From the NCBI RefSeq assembly GCF_034057115.1, contig NZ_CP139195.1, positions 4,526,001-4,590,000 on the forward strand: DNA of 64,000 nt, in the 5' to 3' direction. The notes below the pieces were generated by a model. It ran no database searches, was not told the origin of the DNA, and saw only the letters and a list, made by a program, of their open reading frames with translations. The first letter of the stretch is position 1. Every line of letters starts with the position of its first letter. This document shows positions 7,727-63,838 of this stretch, piece by piece. Origin of the DNA: Pseudomonas sp. AN-1. Its GTDB lineage: Bacteria; Pseudomonadota; Gammaproteobacteria; Pseudomonadales; Pseudomonadaceae. Position numbers and translations under genes: made by a program.

Positions 7727-9025
7727 TTCGAGGCGGGCGACGAAGCCTCCGCCGGGGTGGTTGGCCAGCACCAGCTGGCCGCCATGGCGCTGTGCCGCGC
7801 GGCGGGCGATGGCCAGGCCCAGGCCGTGGCCGGCGCTGGTCTGGCCGGGGGCGCGGAAGAACGGCTCGCCCAGTTGCGCGAGGTGTTCCCCGGCCACCCC
7901 CGGGCCATGGTCGCGGACTTCCAGTATCAGGCGTTCGCCGTCGCGGCGCGCGCCGATTTCCAGCGGCTGGTCGGGCGGGTTGAAGCGCAGGGCGTTGCGC
8001 AGCAGGTTGTCCAGCGCGCGCTCGAGCAGCTCCGGCCAGCCGGTCAGCTGCAGTCCCGGCTCCATCTCCAGGCGGATCTCCTGCTGCGGCGCCAGCAGGC
8101 CCGCATCCTCGCGCAGCTTGCCGAGCAGGGCGGCGAGGTCCACCGTCTGCGGCTGGCTGCTCTCGGCGTCGACCCGCGCCAGCACCAGGATCTCGCTGAT
8201 CAGCGCCTCCAGGCGGTCGCATTCCTGCACCAGCCGCGGCCACAGGCGCGTGCGCTCGGCGTCGCTGGCGCGCTCGGCCAGCGCCAGGGCGATGCGCAGG
8301 CGCGCCAGTGGCGAGCGCAGCTCGTGGGAGACGTCGCGCAGCAGCTGGCGCTGGCTGCCGATCAGGTCCTGCAGGCGCGCGCCCATGCGGTTGAAGTCGC
8401 GCGCCAGGGTGCCCAGCTCGTCGCGCCGCCGGGCCAGGCGCGCCAGGCTGTGCTGCTGGTAGGTGGTCTGGCCGAGGTCGTGCACCGCGCCGCGCAGGCG
8501 GTTGAGCGGGCGGGTGATCGACAGGGTGAGCAGCGCGCTGAACAGGGTCAGCACCACCACGGCGATGGCCAGCGCGCTGACCGGCCACAGCAGGCTGTCG
8601 CGCTGCCAGCCGGCCAGCTCGGCGTGCGGGATGCGGTAGATGAACAGGTAGGTCTGCCCGCTGGCGGCGCTGGTCTGGTCCTCGGTCAGCCGCCGCCAGG
8701 GCAGGCGGTGGCCTTCGCGGCGCGCCTCGAAGGCCGCCGCGCGGGGCGGGAAGGTGCCGCGCACCAGCGGCTGGCCGGCTTCGTCGAGCACCTGCACGTC
8801 GACATGCCGGCGGTGTTTGTGGCGCTCGAGGAGCTCCTGCGCCGCCTGCGGGCCCCTCTGTTCGTAGCGCTCGATCCAGCGGCTGGCCAGGTCGCGCACG
8901 CCGGGGTGGCGGGCCAAAATCCAGGCGTCCTGGTTCAGCGCGTGGCCGAGCAGCAGCGACAGGCCGGCCACCAGGGCGATGGCCAGCCAGAACGAGGCGA
9001 AGATGCGCCAGAACAGGGTGCGCAT
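7697..9025 (-). CDS. cpxS: Cpx-type sensor histidine kinase
   Basis: Envelope-stress sensor kinase of a two-component system. The 442-residue protein has a first membrane helix at about 7-29, a periplasmic domain, a second helix at about 147-170, a HAMP linker, and a HisKA domain with the phospho-acceptor His234 in DVSHELRSPLARL. The ATPase domain shows NLLRNALRFNP (N box), DHGPGV (G1) and GHGLGLAI (G2). It is the last gene of an operon with the regulator and the Spy-like protein. The symbol follows the usage I recall for the P. aeruginosa orthologue and is provisional. Its stop lies inside the 3' end of the opposing nitroreductase gene. Confidence 0.9.
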   Translation of the reverse strand: MRTLFWRIFASFWLAIALVAGLSLLLGHALNQDAWILARHPGVRDLASRWIERYEQRGPQAAQELLERHKHRRHVDVQVLDEAGQPLVRGTFPPRAAAFEARREGHRLPWRRLTEDQTSAASGQTYLFIYRIPHAELAGWQRDSLLWPVSALAIAVVVLTLFSALLTLSITRPLNRLRGAVHDLGQTTYQQHSLARLARRRDELGTLARDFNRMGARLQDLIGSQRQLLRDVSHELRSPLARLRIALALAERASDAERTRLWPRLVQECDRLEALISEILVLARVDAESSQPQTVDLAALLGKLREDAGLLAPQQEIRLEMEPGLQLTGWPELLERALDNLLRNALRFNPPDQPLEIGARRDGERLILEVRDHGPGVAGEHLAQLGEPFFRAPGQTSAGHGLGLAIARRAAQRHGGQLVLANHPGGGFVARLELPLGGDGKV

Positions 9026-16278: not shown

Positions 16279-16354
16279 GGGTGATTAGCTCAGCTGGGAG
16301 AGCATCTGCCTTACAAGCAGAGGGTCGGCGGTTCGATCCCGTCATCACCCACCA
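16279..16354 (+). tRNA. tRNA-Val (anticodon UAC)
   Basis: A 76-base cloverleaf with encoded CCA. The acceptor GGGTGAT pairs with ATCACCC, the anticodon TAC is at 16312-16314, and the T-loop GTTCGATCC is intact. Confidence 0.96.
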
Positions 16355-16369
16355 CTCTCGAGGTTACGC

Positions 16370-16446
16370 GCAGCGGTAGTTCAGTCGGTTAGAATACCGG
16401 CCTGTCACGCCGGGGGTCGCGGGTTCGAGTCCCGTCCGCTGCGCCA
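16370..16446 (+). tRNA. tRNA-Asp (anticodon GUC)
   Basis: A 77-base cloverleaf with encoded CCA. The acceptor GCAGCGG pairs with CCGCTGC, the anticodon loop CTGTCAC contains GTC, and the T-loop GTTCGAGTC is intact. Fifteen bases separate it from tRNA-Val. Confidence 0.96.
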
Positions 16447-43327: not shown

Positions 43328-43573
43328 GAAGGTTATCCTTGCTGTAAACGTTTCGACTTACTTTTAGTGGTTTGTTCTGTAAGCCCCACGCGAAGGTGCG
43401 TGGGCTTTCAGTATCACGATGTCGCAGTAAAGGCCATAGTCCGCTTGTGGGCTTTGTCGCGAAGCCTCGGTTTTGTGAACTGTTTGGCAATTCCGCTTCA
43501 GGCCGGGAGAGTCGCGCGGGAGGGGCGGAAAGTTTGACGCCCGTCCGGCAAGTCTCTAACCTGCGCCACCTGC
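43328..43573. other. Gap between hemerythrin 2 and the cobalamin riboswitch
   Basis: About 245 bases without a gene. A stem with one bulge (43381-43408, AAGCCC...GGGCTTT) stands near the start of the hemerythrin leader on the opposite strand; lacking a T tract on either side it is not a clear terminator. A promoter for btuB is expected here but I could not place it. Confidence 0.4.
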
Positions 43574-43826
43574 TTCAGGTGCCCCCCAGTCCAGACTCGG
43601 AGGGGTGAAACAGGGAAGCCGGTGCGTATATGTAATGATTTTTCATTGCAATTTTGATACCAAGCCGGCGCTGCCCCCGCAACGGTAGGCGAGTCGAGAA
43701 GCCACACCGGCAGATGCGCGACGCTCCAGAGGCGTCCGCCAACTGCCAGGCCACTGTGTCCAGACACGGGAAGGCGTGGATTCGGGAACCCTCGGGTTCC
43801 GCTCGCAAGCCCGGAGACCGGCCTGT
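43574..43826 (+). promoter_or_regulatory. Cobalamin (AdoCbl) riboswitch upstream of btuB
   Basis: The conserved elements follow in order: AGGTGCC near 43578, GGGAAGCCGGTG near 43613, CCGGCGCTGCCCCCGCAACGGTA (43665-43687; read as two parts), GCCACTGTG near 43750, CACGGGAAGGCG near 43765, and the B12 box AGCCCGGAGACCGGCC at 43808-43823. The B12 box ends about 138 bases before the btuB ATG. It is expected to lower expression of btuB, and perhaps of the cob genes behind it, when adenosylcobalamin is plentiful. Confidence 0.93.
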
Positions 43827-43960
43827 CGCATCCACGGTATCGCGGAGGGCGCTACCCGTCGGGTGGGCGGCCTGCGTGTCCTGCTGTCCGTTCGTCGTCC
43901 GGTCCTCTGCATGCCTTCGCAAGCCAATCGCGCGGGTGAGCGCGATGCAGAGAGTGATCG

Positions 43961-55009: not shown

Positions 55010-56818
55010 TCAGCCGCGGGTCTGCAACCACGCCTTCCAGCCGCCGAAATGGCTGATGTCCTCGGCGCCGGCCAGGCCCCAGCCATCGCAGATGAAGCCG
55101 GTCTCCCAGCGCCCGTCCGCCAGCTCGACCTTGCCCAGGCCCAGCGGCGCCGGGATGCCGGTGAGGAAGGAGCCCAGCTCCGCGCTCGGCAGTTCCCAGA
55201 CCTCCACCGCGATGGCCGCGCCGCCTTCGGCAACGCGCAGCATGCCCGGGCGCAGCGGCGGGCCGCCGGCCAGCGCATACAGTCTGTAAGCCGGCGCGCT
55301 GCGGGTGGCCTCGACCAGCCGGCCGCCACGTTGCACCAGTTGCCAGTTGAGCGGCAGGCCGGCCAGGTGCGCGCCGCACACCACCACGCGGGCCAGATCG
55401 TTGCGCGCGGTGCTGGCCGGCGCCGGCAGGTCGATGGCCCGGCCGCCTGCCAGCGGCAGGGCGTGTTGGCGCTGCACGGCGTCGGCCATGCCGAGCAGGT
55501 ACTGGTCGGTGAAGGCGCGGCCGAACAGGGTCACGCCCCACGGCAGGCCGTTGCTCATCACCCCGCTCGGCACCGCCACCGCGGCGTAGTCCAGCAGGTT
55601 CATGAAGTTGGTGTACCAGCCCAGCTCGGAGTTGCGTAGCACCGGCTCGGCGTGCAGCTCGGCGAGGGTCACCGGGCGGCCGATGGTCGGGGTGAGCACG
55701 CAGTCCAGCCCGGCCAGGATGCGGTCGCACTGCGCCTTGAGCGCCTGCAGGAGGTACTGGGCGCGGAACGCCTCGACCGCCGTGGCGCTCGGCGCTTGGG
55801 CCAGCACCGCGCGGATCACCGGCAGCACCGCCTCGGGATTCGTTTCCAGCAGCTCGCTGGCCACGCTGTAGCGCTCGGCCACCCACGGCCCCTCGTAGAG
55901 CAGCCGCGCGGCTTCGAGGAAGGGCGAGAAGTCGATCTCCACCGCCTCGCCGCCGAGGGCTTCGAGCTGGCGCACGGCGCTGGCGAACTGCAGCGGGCCT
56001 TCGCTGCAGCCGAAGAACTGCAGGTCCTGCGCGCGCGGCACGCCGAAGCGGAACGGGCGCGGCGTGCCGAAGGCCGAGGCGTCGTTCCACAGCGGGTTGG
56101 CGCGGCTGTATTCGTCGCGCGGGTCGAGTTTCGCGGTCAGCGCCAGCAACCGGCTGGCTTCGCGGGCGGTGGCGGTGAAGAAGGTGACGCAGTCCAGCGT
56201 GCGGCAGGCCGGCGCCACCCCGGCGGTGGAGATCAACCCCTTGGTCGCCTTGAGGCCGACCAGGTTGTTCAGCGCCGCCGGCACCCGGCCACTGCCTGCG
56301 GTATCGGTGCCGAGGGCGAAGCTGGCCACGCCGAGGGCCACGGCCAGCGAGGAGCCCGAGCTGGAGCCGCCGGCCGGGTAGTCCGGATGCACGCTGTTGC
56401 GGCATTCGCCGTACGGCGAGCGGGTGCCGTTGAGGCCGGTGGCGAACTGGTCGAGGTTGGTCTTGCCCAGCGGCACGGCGCCGAGGGCGATCAGCTGCGT
56501 GACTATGGTGGCGCTGCTTTCCGGCACATAGGCGAAGGCCGGGCAGGCGGCGGTGGTCGGCACGCCGGCCAGGTCGATATTGTCCTTGATGGCGAAGGGC
56601 ACGCCGTACAGCGGCAGCTCGCCCGGCGCCTTGCCGTCGAGGGCGGCCAGATAGGGCTCCAGTTCCTCGGGCGTCAGCAGGTGGATGAACAGCTTGAATT
56701 CCGGGTTGAGCGCCGCGGCCTTGGCGCGCAGCGCTTCGATCAGCTGGCGCGGGGTAGTGCGGCCATCGAGATAGGCGGCGCACAGGGCGTCGAGGCGCAG
56801 GTCGAATTCGTGGGGCAT
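55010..56818 (-). CDS. atzF: Allophanate hydrolase (AtzF type)
   Basis: Hydrolyses allophanate to ammonia and carbon dioxide; the last step of the guanidine or urea carboxylase route. The 602-residue protein has the amidase signature Lys78 (FAIKDNID), the cis-Ser in AGGSSSGSS near 148-156, and the nucleophile Ser near 175 (DTAGSGRVPA). A C-terminal domain (about 470-602) ends with WLQTRG. The ATG at 56818 is chosen; the open frame further upstream covers repeat DNA. A repeat-rich gap separates it from the carboxylase gene. Confidence 0.93.
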   Translation of the reverse strand: MPHEFDLRLDALCAAYLDGRTTPRQLIEALRAKAAALNPEFKLFIHLLTPEELEPYLAALDGKAPGELPLYGVPFAIKDNIDLAGVPTTAACPAFAYVPESSATIVTQLIALGAVPLGKTNLDQFATGLNGTRSPYGECRNSVHPDYPAGGSSSGSSLAVALGVASFALGTDTAGSGRVPAALNNLVGLKATKGLISTAGVAPACRTLDCVTFFTATAREASRLLALTAKLDPRDEYSRANPLWNDASAFGTPRPFRFGVPRAQDLQFFGCSEGPLQFASAVRQLEALGGEAVEIDFSPFLEAARLLYEGPWVAERYSVASELLETNPEAVLPVIRAVLAQAPSATAVEAFRAQYLLQALKAQCDRILAGLDCVLTPTIGRPVTLAELHAEPVLRNSELGWYTNFMNLLDYAAVAVPSGVMSNGLPWGVTLFGRAFTDQYLLGMADAVQRQHALPLAGGRAIDLPAPASTARNDLARVVVCGAHLAGLPLNWQLVQRGGRLVEATRSAPAYRLYALAGGPPLRPGMLRVAEGGAAIAVEVWELPSAELGSFLTGIPAPLGLGKVELADGRWETGFICDGWGLAGAEDISHFGGWKAWLQTRG

Positions 56819-56865
56819 GGTCGGGTTCCTTGTTGGCCTGGGCGAGGCATGGGGCGCCTGCCGGC

Positions 56866-57017: not shown

Positions 57018-60000
57018 TCAGGCCTCCTCGAGCACCACCACCCGCTGGCCGGCGCGCACCGGCGAGCCGGGCTGCACGCGCACCTCGCGGACCACGCCGC
57101 CGACCGGCGCGGTGAGGGGGATCTCCATCTTCATCGACTCGAGGATCACCAGCACGTCGCCGGCCGCGACCGTTTCGCCCTCGCTCACCTGCACCTGCCA
57201 GAGGTTGCCGGCGATGTGGCTGTCGATGCCGTGCTGGCCGGCGCCAAGGGGCGAGTCCTCGCCGAGGTCGGGGCCGACTTCCTCCACCTCGAAGTGCGCC
57301 TGGCCGGAGTCGATCCAGCGCTGGCGCTCGGCGGCGAAGGCGCCGCGCTGCTGGGCGCGGAACGCGGCGATGCCCTCGGCCTCGTCCTGGAGGAACTGCT
57401 GGTAGTCGGCCAGGGCCAGTTCGCTGTTCTCGATGCGCAGCTCGTAGCGGCCGAGCGGGAAGTCGCGACGGATCTGCAGCAGCTCCTCGGCGGACACAGG
57501 GTAGAAGCGGATCTGGTCGAAGAAGCGCAGCAGCCAGGGCTTGCCGCGGAAGGCCGCGACCTCGCGGTAGCGGTTCCACATCTGCAGGGTGCGGCCGACG
57601 AACTGGTAGCCGCCGGGGCCCTCCATGCCGTACACGCACATGTAGGCGCCGCCGATACCCACCGAGTTCTCCGCGGTCCAGGTGCGTGCCGGGTTGTACT
57701 TGGTGGTGACCAGGCGGTGGCGCGGGTCGAGCGGGGTGGCCACCGGCGCGCCGAGGTACACGTCGCCGAGGCCCATCACCAGGTAGCTGGCGTCGAACAC
57801 GGTCCTGTAGACCTCGTCGAGATTCGGCAGGTCGTTGATCCTACGAATGAACTCCAGGTTGCTCGGGCACCAGGGCGCGTCCTTGCGCACCGTGGTCATG
57901 TACTTGTCGATGGCCAGCTGGCAGGCCGGGTCGTCCCAGGACAGCGGCAGGTGGACGATGCGCGACGGCACCCGGAGATCCTGCGCGGCGCACACCGCGT
58001 CCCACAGCCCGGCGACCGTTTCCAGCAGGCTGGCCAGCGGCAGGGTTTCCGGCTGGTAGTGGACCTGCAGCGAGCGGATGCCCGGCGTCAGGTCGATCAC
58101 CCCGGCGAGCGCCTCGGCTTCCAGCGCCTGCATCAGCGCATGGCCGCGAAAGCGCAGCACCAGGTCCAGCTCCGGCTGGCCGATCTCCAGCAGCAGATGG
58201 GTGTCGCCGGACAGGCGGGCGACCAGGCGGGTGTCGTCCTCACCGATATCCAGGACGATGGGCGACTGCGGCGCGATTGCCTGCCACTCGACCGCCGCCG
58301 GCGCGAGATCCACGCACTCTTCACGGCGCGCCCGGGCCAGTTCGCGCGCGCTGTCGAGGCTCACCGGCACGAAACGCACCCGGTCACCGGCCTTGAGCTG
58401 GCCGAGCTGCCAGAGGTCGGCCTCGATCACCGTCACCGGGCAGACGAAGCCGCCCAGGCTCGGGCCGTCCGGGCCGAGGATCACCGGCATGTCGCCGGTA
58501 AAGTCCACGGCACCAATCGCATACGGGTTGTCGTGGATGTTCGACGGGTGCAGGCCGGCCTCGCCGCCGCTGTCGCGCACCCACTCGGGTTTCGGGCCGA
58601 TCAGGCGCACGCCGGTGCGGCTGGAGTTGAAGTGCACCTCCCAGTCGCTGGCGAGGAAGGTGTCGATGTAGGCCGGGGTGAAGTATTCCGGCGCGCCGTG
58701 CGGGCCGTAGATCACCCGGATTTCGCGCACCGCCGGCAGCGGCGTGCACAGTTCTGCCGGCAGCGCGGCGCCGGCACTGGCGTCGGCCAGCGGCGCCAGG
58801 TGCAGCACGTCGCCGGCGCGCAGGGCGCGGCCGCCGTGACCGCCGAACTGGCCGAGGGTGAAGGTGCTCTTGCTGCCCAGATAGTCCGGCAGCTGCAGGC
58901 CGCCGCGCACGGTCAGATAAGAGCGTGCGCCGGCGCCGGCGATGGTGCCGAGGGCGAGGGTACCGCCGGCTGGGACGAACAGTGCGGTGTGCATGGGCTG
59001 CGCCACGCCGTCGAGGGCGACGGGAATGGCCGAGCCGGTCACCGCCACCACCGCATCGGTGTTGAAGCGCAGCAGCGGGCCGCTCATGGTGATTTCCAGG
59101 CCGGCGGCGCCTTCCGGGTTGCCGAGCAGGCGGTTGCCCAGGCGCAGGGCGCGGTCGTCCATCGGCCCCGACGGCGGCACGCCGACCGCCCAGTAACCGA
59201 GGCGGCCGGGCCAGTCCTGCACCGTGGTCTGGGTGCCGGCGGAAAGCACCTCGAAGGTGCTGGCGCGGTAGGCGAGGCCTTCCAGGCAGCGGGTCCAGGG
59301 CGAGCCGCTGGCGAACGGGGCATCCTGGATGATCTGGCGCAGGTAGTCGCGGTTGGTTTCCACGCCGTACAGCAGCGAGTCGGCCAGCGCGCGGTCCAGC
59401 GCCGCGCTGGCTTCAGTGCGGCTCGGCGCCCAGGCGATCAGCTTGGCGATCATCGGGTCGAAGTAGGGCGGGATCTCGCAGCCGGCCTCGACCCAGGTGT
59501 CGATGCGCAGGCGCTGGCCGTCGGCCACCGGGAACTCGACCGCGGTGAGCAGGCCGGGGCTGGGCTGGAAGTCGCGGCCCGGGTCCTCGGCGTACAGGCG
59601 CGCCTGGATGGCGTGGCCGCTGGGCGTGAGGCCCTTGGCCAGCTCGCTGAGCGGTGGCAGGTCGCCGGCGGCCAGCTCGATCATCCAGCGCACCAGGTCG
59701 ACGCCCCACACCTGCTCGGTGACGCCGTGCTCGACCTGCAGGCGGGTGTTCACTTCGAGGAAGTAGAAGCGTGCGGCCTCGCTGTCGTAGACGAACTCCA
59801 CGGTGCCGGCGCTGCGGTAATTGACCGCCCTGGCCAGCTTGATCGCCGCGGCGCACAGTTCCTCGGCCATGCCGGCCGGCAGGTTGGGCGCCGGGGTTTC
59901 CTCCAGCACCTTCTGGTTGCGCCGCTGCACCGAGCAGTCGCGCACGCCGAGGGCCAGAACCTCGCCCTGGCCGTCGCCGAATACCTGCACTTCCAGGTGG

Positions 60001-60617
60001 CGGGCGCGCTCGATGTACTTCTCGATGAACACGCCCGAGTCGCTGAAGTTGTTCTGCCCCAGGCGCTTGACCGCCTCGAAGGCTTCGGACAACTCCATGG
60101 CGCTGCGACATACGCGCATGCCGATGCCGCCGCCGCCGGCGGTGCTCTTCAGCATCACCGGGTAGCCGACCTGCTCGCCGGCCTTCAGCGCAGCATCGAG
60201 GCTGTCCAGCAGTTCGGTGCCTTCCAGCAGCGGCACGTCGTGCTGTTTTGCGAGAGCCCTTGCGGTGTGCTTGAGGCCGAACACGCGCAGCTGCTCCGGC
60301 GTCGGGCCGACGAAGGCGATGCCGGCGGCCTCGCAGGCTTCGGCGAAGGCGGCGTTCTCGGAGAGGAAGCCGTAGCCGGGGTGGATGGCTTGGGCGCCGC
60401 TCTGTTTGGCCGCGGCGAGGATCTTCTCCACCACCAGGTAGGTGGCGGAGGCCGGGCCTTCGCCCAGCGAGAAGGCCTCGTCGGCCTGCTGGATATGCAG
60501 GCTGGCGGCGTCGGCTTCGGAGTAGACGGCCACGCCCTCGACGTTCAGGGCGCGCAGGGTACGCAGGATGCGGCAGGCGATGGCGCCGCGGTTGGCGATC
60601 AGGAGTTTGGCGAACAT
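57018..60617 (-). CDS. Biotin-dependent guanidine carboxylase (annotated as urea carboxylase in most genomes)
   Basis: A 1199-residue multidomain biotin carboxylase. An ATP-grasp biotin carboxylase (about 1-450; KSTAGGGGIGMR and LEVNTRLQVEHGVTE), a carboxyltransferase half related to KipI/KipA (about 470-1090), and a C-terminal biotinyl domain with the target Lys1163 in LESMKME. The ATG at 60617 is confirmed by the riboswitch and Shine-Dalgarno region ahead of it. The family includes urea carboxylase and guanidine carboxylase; the adjacent DUF1989 genes and the guanidine-II riboswitch in its own leader favour guanidine. It supplies carboxyguanidine for deimination to allophanate. Confidence 0.88.
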   Translation of the reverse strand: MFAKLLIANRGAIACRILRTLRALNVEGVAVYSEADAASLHIQQADEAFSLGEGPASATYLVVEKILAAAKQSGAQAIHPGYGFLSENAAFAEACEAAGIAFVGPTPEQLRVFGLKHTARALAKQHDVPLLEGTELLDSLDAALKAGEQVGYPVMLKSTAGGGGIGMRVCRSAMELSEAFEAVKRLGQNNFSDSGVFIEKYIERARHLEVQVFGDGQGEVLALGVRDCSVQRRNQKVLEETPAPNLPAGMAEELCAAAIKLARAVNYRSAGTVEFVYDSEAARFYFLEVNTRLQVEHGVTEQVWGVDLVRWMIELAAGDLPPLSELAKGLTPSGHAIQARLYAEDPGRDFQPSPGLLTAVEFPVADGQRLRIDTWVEAGCEIPPYFDPMIAKLIAWAPSRTEASAALDRALADSLLYGVETNRDYLRQIIQDAPFASGSPWTRCLEGLAYRASTFEVLSAGTQTTVQDWPGRLGYWAVGVPPSGPMDDRALRLGNRLLGNPEGAAGLEITMSGPLLRFNTDAVVAVTGSAIPVALDGVAQPMHTALFVPAGGTLALGTIAGAGARSYLTVRGGLQLPDYLGSKSTFTLGQFGGHGGRALRAGDVLHLAPLADASAGAALPAELCTPLPAVREIRVIYGPHGAPEYFTPAYIDTFLASDWEVHFNSSRTGVRLIGPKPEWVRDSGGEAGLHPSNIHDNPYAIGAVDFTGDMPVILGPDGPSLGGFVCPVTVIEADLWQLGQLKAGDRVRFVPVSLDSARELARARREECVDLAPAAVEWQAIAPQSPIVLDIGEDDTRLVARLSGDTHLLLEIGQPELDLVLRFRGHALMQALEAEALAGVIDLTPGIRSLQVHYQPETLPLASLLETVAGLWDAVCAAQDLRVPSRIVHLPLSWDDPACQLAIDKYMTTVRKDAPWCPSNLEFIRRINDLPNLDEVYRTVFDASYLVMGLGDVYLGAPVATPLDPRHRLVTTKYNPARTWTAENSVGIGGAYMCVYGMEGPGGYQFVGRTLQMWNRYREVAAFRGKPWLLRFFDQIRFYPVSAEELLQIRRDFPLGRYELRIENSELALADYQQFLQDEAEGIAAFRAQQRGAFAAERQRWIDSGQAHFEVEEVGPDLGEDSPLGAGQHGIDSHIAGNLWQVQVSEGETVAAGDVLVILESMKMEIPLTAPVGGVVREVRVQPGSPVRAGQRVVVLEEA

Positions 60618-60636
60618 GGAGGAAGCCCCATGCAGT

Positions 60637-60683
60637 GGCGGGTCGTCCCGCCGGAAATCTTCTGCACCACGGTCGTCCGTGGT
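60637..60683 (-). promoter_or_regulatory. Guanidine-II (mini-ykkC) riboswitch in front of the carboxylase gene
   Basis: On the minus strand: ACCACGG-ACGA-CCGTGGT (60683 to 60666), a 13-base linker, then GGCGGG-ACGA-CCCGCC (60652 to 60637). Both stems are perfect and both loops are ACGA, the ACGR tetraloop that binds guanidine in this class. The second hairpin ends 19 bases before the carboxylase ATG, beside the Shine-Dalgarno region, so ligand binding could expose or hide the ribosome-binding site. Confidence 0.88.
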
Positions 60684-60852: not shown

Positions 60853-61488
60853 TCAGTCCCACACCAGCACCTCGGCCGGCGTCGGGTTCCAGCCGTTGCA
60901 CGGGTTGTTCAGCTGCGGGCAGTTGGAGATCAGCACGATCACGTCCATATGCGCCTTCAGCTCCACATACTTGCCCGGCGCGGAGATGCCGTCGGCGAAG
61001 GTCAGGCCGCCTTCGGGGGTGACCGGCACGTTCATGAAGAAGTTGATGTTCGCGCCGATGTCGCGTTTCTCCAGGCGGCCGTCGCTGAGGCTGGCGCGCA
61101 GGAAGTTGTCGCGGCAGCTGTGCATGTAGCGCTTGTCCAGGGCGTATCTGACCGTATTGCTCTCCTGCGCGCAGGCGCCGCCGAGGGTGTCGTGGCGGCC
61201 GCAGGTGTCGGCGACGATGGTCAGCAGCGGATTGCCGAGATTGGAATACAGCACCGTGCCAGTGGTCAGGTAGATGTTGTTCTGCCGGCGCAGGGTGCGC
61301 TGCGGGTCGTAGCGTTCACGCGGATTGCGCGCCGAGAAGAACAGGGTGTCTACCGCCTGGTTGCCTTCCAGGTCGAGCAGGCGGACGGTCTGCCCGGCCT
61401 TGACCTCGAACAGGTAGGGTTCGCCGGCCGGGATCACGTGGCGGAACACGGCGGTTTCGGGATGCAGGGAGCTTGCGACGAGGCTCAT
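60853..61488 (-). CDS. DUF1989-family protein, urea amidolyase-associated protein 2 (carboxyguanidine deiminase subunit)
   Basis: A 211-residue DUF1989 protein. Conserved polar residues stand in [20 protein letters not shown] near 32-51, [14 protein letters not shown] near 95-108 (Cys and His likely bind metal), SCRDNFL near 124 and [10 protein letters not shown] near 148. Paralogous to the next gene. Together they are expected to form a heteromeric carboxyguanidine deiminase making allophanate. Nine bases separate the pair. Confidence 0.85.
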
Positions 61489-61497
61489 GTCGGGTCC

Positions 61498-62226
61498 TCA
61501 GATATACAGACGTTCGGTGTTGTGGAAGCCGCGGCCGTTCTCCGGGCGCGAGGTGCGGCACAGCACGCTGATGCCGTCGCTCTCCACCCGGTGCCAGGTG
61601 AGTTGCACCGGCTTGGGCGAGTACACCGGGTTGGGGTCCTGCGGATGCTGCAGGGCGGTGAGCACCACCAGGCTGTCCATCGGCGCGTACAGCTCGACGT
61701 AGTCGCCGGCGCGCGAGTTGCCAGTTTCGAAGGCGAAGGCGCCGCCTTCGTCCACCGTGACCTTGCTGAACAGGTTGAGAGGCATCAGCAGGTCCTGCAG
61801 GTTGAGGTTCCACTTGCCCATCTCCACCAGCAGGTTGTCCGTGCCGTTGCGGTAGAAGGCGTTGCGCAGCTCCTGGTAGCGGCCCTGGCCGTACTTCTCG
61901 CGGGTCTCCGCGGCATTCAGCACGCCGCCGAAGCTGTCGTGCCAGCCGCAGGTGTCGGCGGTGATCGCCGCCAGCACGCGGCCCATGTCCGAGTACAGGC
62001 AGTGGCCGGCGGTCAGTTTGGCGGTGTGCTGGCACTTGAGGGTGTCCGGCAGGTTGAGGCGCTCGCTCTTCTCAAAGGCGTTGAGCAGCAGCAGGCTGAC
62101 GTTGGCGCCGCCTTCGAGGTCGGTGATGCGCAGCACCTGGCCGCGCTTGAGCACGAAGGAGGTATGGCCGCCGCCGGGGACGAGTTCCTCGTACAGGGTC
62201 GGGCGCAGGGTCAGGGATGCAGTCAT
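61498..62226 (-). CDS. DUF1989-family protein, urea amidolyase-associated protein 1 (carboxyguanidine deiminase subunit)
   Basis: A 242-residue DUF1989 protein with the same landmarks as its partner: GQVLRITDLEGGANVSLLLL near 28-47, CGWHDSFGGVLNAAE near 92-106 and NLNLQDLLMPLNLFSKV near 140. The ATG at 62226 is eleven bases after the ABC ATPase stop; the frame is open upstream only as shadow. Requires its paralogue for the deiminase activity reported in guanidine degraders (established for the family; here inferred). Confidence 0.85.
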   Translation of the reverse strand: MTASLTLRPTLYEELVPGGGHTSFVLKRGQVLRITDLEGGANVSLLLLNAFEKSERLNLPDTLKCQHTAKLTAGHCLYSDMGRVLAAITADTCGWHDSFGGVLNAAETREKYGQGRYQELRNAFYRNGTDNLLVEMGKWNLNLQDLLMPLNLFSKVTVDEGGAFAFETGNSRAGDYVELYAPMDSLVVLTALQHPQDPNPVYSPKPVQLTWHRVESDGISVLCRTSRPENGRGFHNTERLYI

Positions 62227-62237
62227 GGGTAGCTCCT

Positions 62238-63029
62238 TTACAGCGCGGTTTGCAGCCCGGCGCCGATGTGCGCGGGCAGGGCGTCGACGGCCGCGCGCGC
62301 GGCGCGGCGGTCGGCGTTGAGGGGGATGTCGTAGGTCACCCGCGCGCCGTAGGCGCCGGGCGCGTGCGGGTCGACGCGCACCTTGTCGAACACCAGCAGG
62401 CGCGTGCCGAGGCTGAAGCCCTCGGACAGGTCGTGGGTGACCATGAACACGGTGAGGTTGGTCTCGCGCCACAGCTCCAGCAGCAGGGCGTGCATGTCCT
62501 TGCGGATGCCCGGGTCGAGGGCGCCGAACGGCTCGTCGAGCAGCAGCACGCGCGGCCTCATCACCAGCGCCTGGGCGATGGCCAGGCGCTGCTGCATGCC
62601 GCCGGACAGCTGGGTGGCGTACTTGTCCAGCGCGTGACCGAGGCCGACCTTCCTGAGCATCGCCGCGGCCTGCTCGCGCGCCTCGCGCTTGGCAGCGCCG
62701 AACAGCCGGCCGAGCAGCGGCGCGCGCGGCAGCTCCAGGCCGAGGGCGACGTTGTCCAGCACCGACAGGTGCGGGAACACCGTGTAGCGCTGGAACACGA
62801 TGCCGCGGCTGGCGTCCGGCTCGCCGGCCAGCGGCTGGCCGTCGAGGAGGATCTCGCCGCGGCTCGGGCGCTCCTGGCCGAGCAGCAGGCGCAGGAAGGT
62901 CGACTTGCCGCAGCCGGAGGCGCCGACCAGGGTGCAGAACTCGCCTTCCCGGATGCTCAGGTTGAGGCGCTCGATGACCACCTGGTCACCGTATTCCTGC
63001 CAGATGTTTTTGACCTCGATGAAGCTCAT
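62238..63029 (-). CDS. ABC transporter ATPase, taurine/nitrate/guanidine-region type
   Basis: A 263-residue ATPase: Walker A GASGCGKST at 36-44, Q-loop FQRYTVFPH, signature LSGGMQQR near 140, Walker B VLLLDEP, and switch His in VTHDL. It energises the adjacent permease (ATGA overlap). The substrate is probably guanidine or a related nitrogen compound from operon context. Confidence 0.92.
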   Translation of the reverse strand: MSFIEVKNIWQEYGDQVVIERLNLSIREGEFCTLVGASGCGKSTFLRLLLGQERPSRGEILLDGQPLAGEPDASRGIVFQRYTVFPHLSVLDNVALGLELPRAPLLGRLFGAAKREAREQAAAMLRKVGLGHALDKYATQLSGGMQQRLAIAQALVMRPRVLLLDEPFGALDPGIRKDMHALLLELWRETNLTVFMVTHDLSEGFSLGTRLLVFDKVRVDPHAPGAYGARVTYDIPLNADRRAARAAVDALPAHIGAGLQTAL

Positions 63030-63838
63030 GCCTTGGCTCCTTCATACCAGGGGAAGGCCAGCCGGGTGAGCTGGCGCAGGCCCAGATCCGTCAGCCAGGC
63101 GAGCAGGGTGATCCACAGCACGTAGGGCAGGATCACGTCCATTGCCATGTAGCGGCGTACCAGGAAGATCCGGTAGCCGAGGCCGTCGGTGGCGGCGATG
63201 GCCTCGGCGGCGATCAGGAACAGCCAGGCCGAGCCGAGCACCAGGCGCAGGGCGATCAAGAGGCGCGGCAGCAGCTGCGGCAGCACCACGCGCAGGATCA
63301 GCGTCCAGGTGCTGGCGCCGAGGGTCTGCGCCTTGATCAGTAGCTCGGCGGGAATCTCGCGGGCGCGCTGCTCCAGATCGCGCGCCAGCACCGGGGTGAT
63401 GCCGATAACGATCAGCATCACCTTGGCCAGCTCGCCGAGGCCGAAGGCGATGAACAGGATCGGCAGGATGGCCAGCGGCGGCACCATCGACAGCACGGTG
63501 AGCAAGGGCGAGAGCGGTGCGCCCAGCAGCGGCAGGCTGCCGGCGGCGATGCCCAGGCACAGGCCGGCCAGTGCGGCGATGCCGATGCCCAGGCCGAGGC
63601 GGGTCAGGCTGGCGGTGGTGTCCCGCCAGAACAGGTAGTCGCCGCTGCGCTTGTCCGGGGTGAAGGCCAGGCGCTCGACCGCCGCGGCCATCTGCGTGGC
63701 GCCGGGCAGCAGCTTGTCGTTGGGGTTGTCGGCCAGCCGGCTGGCCGAGCCGCTGAAGTAGGCCATCAGCAGCAGGGCGAAGGGCAGAAGCACCAGCAGC
63801 AGGCGGCTGCGGCCGGGTTGTCGGTTGATCAGGCGCAT
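63026..63838 (-). CDS. ABC transporter permease (SsuC/TauC family)
   Basis: A 270-residue inner-membrane permease with about six helices and the EAA loop EIPAELLIKAQTLGASTWTLILRVVLPQLLPRL near 160-193 (read as two parts). Its ATG follows a 93-base gap containing the family B repeat. It pairs with the ATPase and the binding protein. Confidence 0.92.
   Translation of the reverse strand: MRLINRQPGRSRLLLVLLPFALLLMAYFSGSASRLADNPNDKLLPGATQMAAAVERLAFTPDKRSGDYLFWRDTTASLTRLGLGIGIAALAGLCLGIAAGSLPLLGAPLSPLLTVLSMVPPLAILPILFIAFGLGELAKVMLIVIGITPVLARDLEQRAREIPAELLIKAQTLGASTWTLILRVVLPQLLPRLLIALRLVLGSAWLFLIAAEAIAATDGLGYRIFLVRRYMAMDVILPYVLWITLLAWLTDLGLRQLTRLAFPWYEGAKA

Follow-up and report, generated by a model that had tools for sequence, protein, structure and literature searches.

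Introduction

The guanidine carboxylase of Schneider 2020 and Sinn 2021 reportedly carries aspartate at the positions of K. lactis residues 1330 and 1584, and is said to work with CgdA/CgdB and an allophanate hydrolase as partners. The aspartate at K. lactis position 1584 is described as a requirement of guanidine carboxylase, while an aspartate at 1330 sets the enzyme off from urea carboxylase (PMC11410670). In Raoultella, Erwinia and Klebsiella, a guanidine-I riboswitch accompanies importer and deiminase genes, and a guanidine-II riboswitch precedes the genes for the carboxylase and allophanate hydrolase (PMC12186494). In Vreelandella boliviensis, in-line probing showed that the internal guanidine-II binds both guanidine (93 uM) and methylguanidine (83 uM); no binding of methylguanidine by its guanidine-I was seen over the range tested, and the proteins of the operon rise on guanidine (PMC12508155). 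The layout of a guanidine-I head with an internal guanidine-II is already published, and it is ordinary among the near relatives of the organism considered here.

Published models of switching in the guanidine-II class (mini-ykkC, RF01068) place an anti-Shine-Dalgarno sequence either in the linker between the two hairpins, as in E. coli (PMC9300104, PMC9094411), or in a P0 helix, as in P. aeruginosa (PMC9561414). In E. coli, binding was stronger at the ACGA hairpin (PMC9300104).

The locus described here lies near the end of a 64,000-nucleotide window of the genome of Pseudomonas sp. AN-1. It is read, at a probability of about 93%, as a guanidine-II riboswitch inside the guanidine-assimilation operon of a Pseudomonas-like bacterium, where it would act as a translational ON switch for the carboxylase.

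The guanidine-II element

Two perfectly paired hairpins, each capped by an ACGA loop, lie on the minus strand: P1, with 7 bp, at 60666..60683 and P2, with 6 bp, at 60637..60652. The linker between them is 13 nt long, and another 19 nt separate P2 from the carboxylase ATG at 60617. An earlier note on this DNA had described the hairpins, their spacing and their distance from the ATG, and its account is exact to the base. It had also assigned the pair to the guanidine-II class, and running the Rfam models bore this out, with cmscan of the whole window returning RF01068 at 60684-60638 on the minus strand with 44.9 bits against a cut-off of 32. With the whole window searched against 4227 families, the E value is 1.1e-5; no broken pairs are marked, and the site is the sole RF01068 match in the 4.61 Mb genome. 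Even a permissive search (any two ACGR hairpins at most 30 nt apart, each stem at least 5 pairs long, on both strands) finds one tandem pair in the window and one in total in 200 simulated windows built from its dinucleotide frequencies.

With the described class the locus shares the two ACGA-capped hairpins, the 13-nt linker, a start codon nearby and the downstream gene gca. The element precedes this guanidine-related gene on the same strand, 19 nt 5' of its ATG, and gca encodes the signature residues discussed below. The position is internal to the operon, in the 235 nt that separate cgdA from gca.

Elsewhere in the window, a cobalamin riboswitch lies at 43560-43840 on the plus strand (80.8 bits), and ORFs from about 50000 on resemble cobalamin biosynthesis genes by eye. 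Two tRNA genes stand 18 nt apart at 16279-16443, also on the plus strand.

The operon and its guanidine-I head

The genes of the operon all lie on the minus strand. The carboxylase gene gca (57018..60617, 1199 aa) matches TIGR02712, a model named 'urea carboxylase', at 1868 bits (cut-off 1303.85). Upstream of it are two adjacent DUF1989 (PF09347) paralogues, both scoring above the cut-offs of their respective models: cgdA (60853..61488, 211 aa; UAAP2, TIGR03424, 332.3 bits) and cgdB (61498..62226, 242 aa; UAAP1, TIGR03425, 307.2 bits, searched as 61498-62166), names that are assigned here by UAAP type, not by tree. These are followed, further upstream, by the ATPase (62238..63029) and permease (63026..63838) of an ABC transporter. 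On the other side of gca lies an allophanate hydrolase gene of the atzF type (55010..56818, 602 aa; searched as 55010-56821), which matches NF006043 at 851.5 bits and TIGR02713 at 787 bits.

The operon extends beyond the window end to a substrate-binding protein gene (L002:1933-3000, minus strand; Pfam NMT1). At the operon head, this gene is preceded by a guanidine-I riboswitch (RF00442; L002:3061-3168, which is G000:C1:4591167-4591060, minus strand) with 89.9 bits against a cut-off of 63, the sole match to that family in the genome. Because the operon is headed by guanidine-I just outside the window, the guanidine-II element is its internal second switch. The distance from the guanidine-I aptamer to the ATG of the substrate-binding protein gene is 60 nt, with a GGAGG before the ATG (L002:3168-3000, minus strand). 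No terminator-like site was found after the aptamer on the same strand of this stretch, and guanidine-I may here work at the level of translation or with the help of Rho, and not by an intrinsic terminator.

The succession of guanidine-I head, transporter, cgd genes, guanidine-II, gca and allophanate hydrolase is the same as that described for the gca operons of Raoultella, Erwinia, Klebsiella and V. boliviensis. The operon of V. boliviensis, as described, differs in carrying mgdH/mgdL between gca and atzF, whereas none was seen there in the window among ORFs of at least 100 aa. The earlier note had placed two DUF1989 genes and an allophanate hydrolase in the operon, where the profile matches indeed locate them, and had proposed that the whole operon degrades guanidine. 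This proposal is supported, as the DUF1989 pair, the allophanate hydrolase and the ABC transporter complete the guanidine carboxylase pathway described in PMC12186494.

Identity of the carboxylase

The TIGR02712 match of the carboxylase is full-length (residues 2-1197) and is the only full-length match above the cut-off in the genome. The urea carboxylase / urea amidolyase of K. lactis (PDB 3va7, 5i8i) belongs to the same protein family over its whole length. In an alignment to the K. lactis chain 5i8i, D705 falls on N1330 and D952 on D1584. The asparagine at 1330 that marks K. lactis urea carboxylase is therefore absent from the window enzyme, which has aspartate instead. From the guanidine carboxylase of Schneider 2020 and Sinn 2021 no difference was found in these residues or in the partner genes.

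A TIGR02712 survey across 200 genomes from the phylum, with a threshold of E 1e-300, placed these residues in a wider context. It recovered 33 carboxylase places in 28 of the 200 genomes, own genome included; besides the window's, 25 are Asp-type and 7 Asn-type. Guanidine-II stands just before the gene in 14 of the 25 Asp-type places versus none of the 7 Asn-type, and one further Asp-type place (L121) has guanidine-I only. The remaining 10 of 25 have no guanidine riboswitch of either class in the scanned flanks, which measured 1.5 kb except at L121-L123, so that elements at an operon head may have escaped the scan; at L093 the contig end cut the downstream flank short. All five genomes with two carboxylase copies hold one of the Asp type and one of the Asn type.

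A quick tree was built from 41 rows, with 8 of the 80 nearest loci added to the 32 surveyed places and the window's own. A branch with an SH-aLRT of 100 separates the 7 Asn-type rows from all others, the window row being among the latter; 12 of the 38 inner branches of the tree are open. The earlier claim that the enzyme carboxylates guanidine and not urea holds as a prediction from sequence, with both signature aspartates present and with a phylogeny that sets the carboxylase apart from the urea-type branch.

Conservation among relatives

Relatives were taken as the best 80 of 582 confirmed loci, which makes them the nearest kin and not an even sample. Their titles read Pseudomonas, Stutzerimonas or Pseudomonadaceae, with one Gammaproteobacteria (L026). 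The nearest named loci among these best 80 are Pseudomonas, and the carboxylase of P. oryzagri is 93% identical. A guanidine-II core precedes the carboxylase in 80/80 of these best loci. In 78/80 no more than 160 nt separate the P1/P2 cores from the start of the carboxylase, and in L017 and L043 the cores lie about 170 nt upstream; judged by eye, these two loci have a similar insert of about 130 nt between guanidine-II and the carboxylase start (~7850-8000). The Asp signature motif was read in 79/80, the simple pattern having no match in L030. Across the family, RF01068 reaches E 0.001 or better in 58 of 79 genomes, own included.

The P2 loop is ACGG in 73 of the 80 loci, ACGA in 4 and ACGC in 1, with 2 unscored; the window has ACGA in both hairpins. 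The ACGC loop, which departs from ACGR, belongs to L023 (Pseudomonas kuykendallii, upstream of 8001).

Both guanidine-I core motifs are found upstream in 76 of these 80 best loci, and in the 4 loci without them only 0.1-2.7 kb of upstream sequence is present. Two guanidine-I cores lie upstream in 28/80 relatives, about 1.4-1.6 kb apart in 19 loci and widely spaced in 9, which together with guanidine-II makes three guanidine riboswitches per locus. In L005 and L007 each guanidine-I core heads its own substrate-binding protein gene; in L012 one precedes a permease/ATPase and the other precedes genes for a substrate-binding protein, cgdB and cgdA.

A predicted third hairpin in carboxylase leaders

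In predicted folds, the window departs from the published switching models in what surrounds its start site. Folding predicts a third hairpin, named P3 here, with 8 bp at 60614..60633 on the minus strand, which holds both a Shine-Dalgarno-like GGGG (60629-60626) and the AUG of gca (60617-60615). The best fold of the leader combines P1, P2 and P3, the last at -9.8 kcal/mol, and in the fold ensemble the Shine-Dalgarno (SD) and the AUG have unpaired probabilities of 0.01 each. The SD is predicted to pair within this local hairpin instead of with the linker (0.00) or the 5' flank/P1 (0.01). The SD and AUG would thus sit in a hairpin of their own and not in a linker or P0 pairing. A P0 helix between CCUCC in the 5' flank and the SD is visible by eye in the window, but was rejected as it accounts for an SD pairing of only 0.01 in the ensemble. 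A literature search, with Nelson 2017, Sherlock 2017, Schneider 2020 and Sinn 2021 outside its scope, returned no account of a third hairpin in carboxylase leaders.

Hairpins holding the SD were looked for in 80 leaders, those of the window, of L163 and of 78 of the 80 relatives, and 79 had one, with the pairing partner downstream in 26 (mean -8.8 kcal/mol) and upstream in 53 (-4.6 kcal/mol); of the latter, many have only 4 pairs and may be due to chance. In 66 of the 79 the third hairpin starts 0-4 nt 3' of P2. Masking of the SD was compared with shuffles that preserve the SD and start codon, over 60 distinct tails: 13 of 200 shuffles were as low as the window (score 0.065), and scores were at most 0.05 in 20/60 tails and at most 0.5 in 43/60. 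When 260 nt of upstream sequence was added, the SD paired far upstream at more than 0.3 in 21 of 81 leaders, the window's not among them, which counts against one uniform P3 across relatives.

A CAUG subgroup comprises ten leaders: the window's, that of L163 and those of 8 relatives out of the 80. Here one P3 pair is GU in 5, GC in 3 and AU in 2, another is GC in 7 and GU in 3, and 70 of 70 cells are paired; sliding P3 as a control lowers the paired share to 39-80%. In these 10 leaders no pair has changed on both sides, and covariation is no better than in shuffles: the paired share is reached by 246 of 500 and the pair types by 468 of 500. Covariation thus leaves the modelled P3 neither proven nor excluded; the masking test lends it partial support.

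The coupling of P3 to the aptamer was approached by forced folding of 75 carboxylase leaders, the window's included, after 4 without a simple P1 and 2 without a P2 core within 160 nt had been dropped. Mean SD pairing in this set is 0.02 with the linker, 0.05 with the 5' flank/P1, 0.31 with the stretch from P2 to the SD and 0.43 with downstream sequence. Forming P1 and P2 costs more than 1 kcal/mol in 6 of the 75. With both hairpins forced, SD access gains more than 0.1 in none of the leaders and loses more than 0.1 in 2. Energies computed from secondary structure cannot capture the kissing loop or any tertiary strain.

Exporter leaders as a comparison

Leaders of guanidine exporter genes carry the same aptamer and offer a comparison, though an imperfect one. 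Of 20 RF01068 places chosen from family genomes, mostly second or weaker matches per genome, 19 precede a gene matching the SugE/Gdx model above its cut-off and one (L163) precedes a carboxylase. E. coli gdx and these 19 made up a set of 20 exporter leaders, in which the SD pairs with the linker at a mean of 0.43 and at more than 0.3 in 12/20, the linker not being the main partner in 8/20. The median cost of forming P1 and P2 is 4.4 kcal/mol, and an SD access gain above 0.1 on forcing them is seen in just 5 of 21 rows in the exporter computation. In the E. coli gdx control, SD access is unchanged on forcing (0.23 -> 0.23), which marks the method as a weak one for switching.

The contrast between predicted exporter and carboxylase folds suggests one aptamer with two output designs. 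A more specific version, put forward tentatively and with considerable doubt, is that in Pseudomonas and its kin the SD of the exporter genes (gdx/sugE) tends to be masked by the linker and that of the carboxylase is masked by a separate P3, which in the window's subgroup would include the AUG. With the SD in a separate P3 and not in the linker, guanidine would have to open P3 without linker capture, perhaps through strain or stacking from the kissed P1-P2.

Proposed working of the operon and alternatives

In the scheme favored here, the ABC transporter would import guanidine, which Gca would carboxylate with ATP and biotin. CgdA/CgdB would then deiminate carboxyguanidine to allophanate, and the allophanate hydrolase would release ammonia and CO2. 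The upstream guanidine-I would gate the whole operon, with guanidine-II as a second gate on the ATP-consuming carboxylase. Guanidine bound in both ACGA loops would lead P1 and P2 to kiss, and the kissed pair would render the carboxylase start site available, giving an ON switch at the level of translation. That the kissed P1-P2 goes on to open P3 is an inference; predicted folding gave no path from formation of P1/P2 to a freed start site (access gain above 0.1 in 0/75 leaders).

It is very improbable that the locus is instead a genuine operon for urea carboxylase / urea amidolyase whose hairpin pair is decayed or fortuitous, even if the best family model does bear the name urea carboxylase. 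The whole genome gave no match to the urease alpha subunit, which would make urea carboxylation useful and not redundant, and its redundancy is consequently unusable as an argument. However, the enzyme has the guanidine carboxylase residue at both signature positions and the window row lies outside the Asn-type branch, on which grounds a urea carboxylase was rejected; both guanidine riboswitch matches, moreover, stand well above their cut-offs with conserved cores. Also improbable is a guanidine-II element that responds equally or more to another guanidino compound, for example methylguanidine, and so widens the range of inducers beyond that of guanidine-I. A precedent for such a role is the internal guanidine-II of V. 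boliviensis, which binds the two ligands about equally, in contrast to guanidine-I and its rejection of methylguanidine over the range tested (PMC12508155). In the window operon, though, no mgdH/mgdL was seen among ORFs of at least 100 aa, and the next sense-strand gene after gca is the allophanate hydrolase.

It is unlikely, too, that P3 rather than the aptamer sets the output of the carboxylase, so that the start site stays closed regardless of ligand and guanidine-II is a gate that is weak or vestigial. The predicted stability of the window P3 (-9.8 kcal/mol) would fit such an arrangement, as would the 0/75 leaders in which forcing P1 and P2 shifts predicted SD access by more than +0.1. Yet these energies are blind to the kissing loop and tertiary strain, and the aptamer core is kept in 80/80 relatives (best 80 of 582), unlike a vestige. 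A guanidine-responsive second gate on the carboxylase remains the preferred reading.

Implications

With this reading, the names 'urea carboxylase' and 'urea amidolyase associated protein', a common error, are put right in a further genome. The remaining interest lies in the expression platform, as P3 in carboxylase leaders may be new, and a comparative set of 80 leaders is provided. If the P3 reading is true, exporter and carboxylase leaders would constitute natural pairs in which one aptamer class serves two output designs, and the coupling step of guanidine-II, so far an inferred one, would become directly testable.
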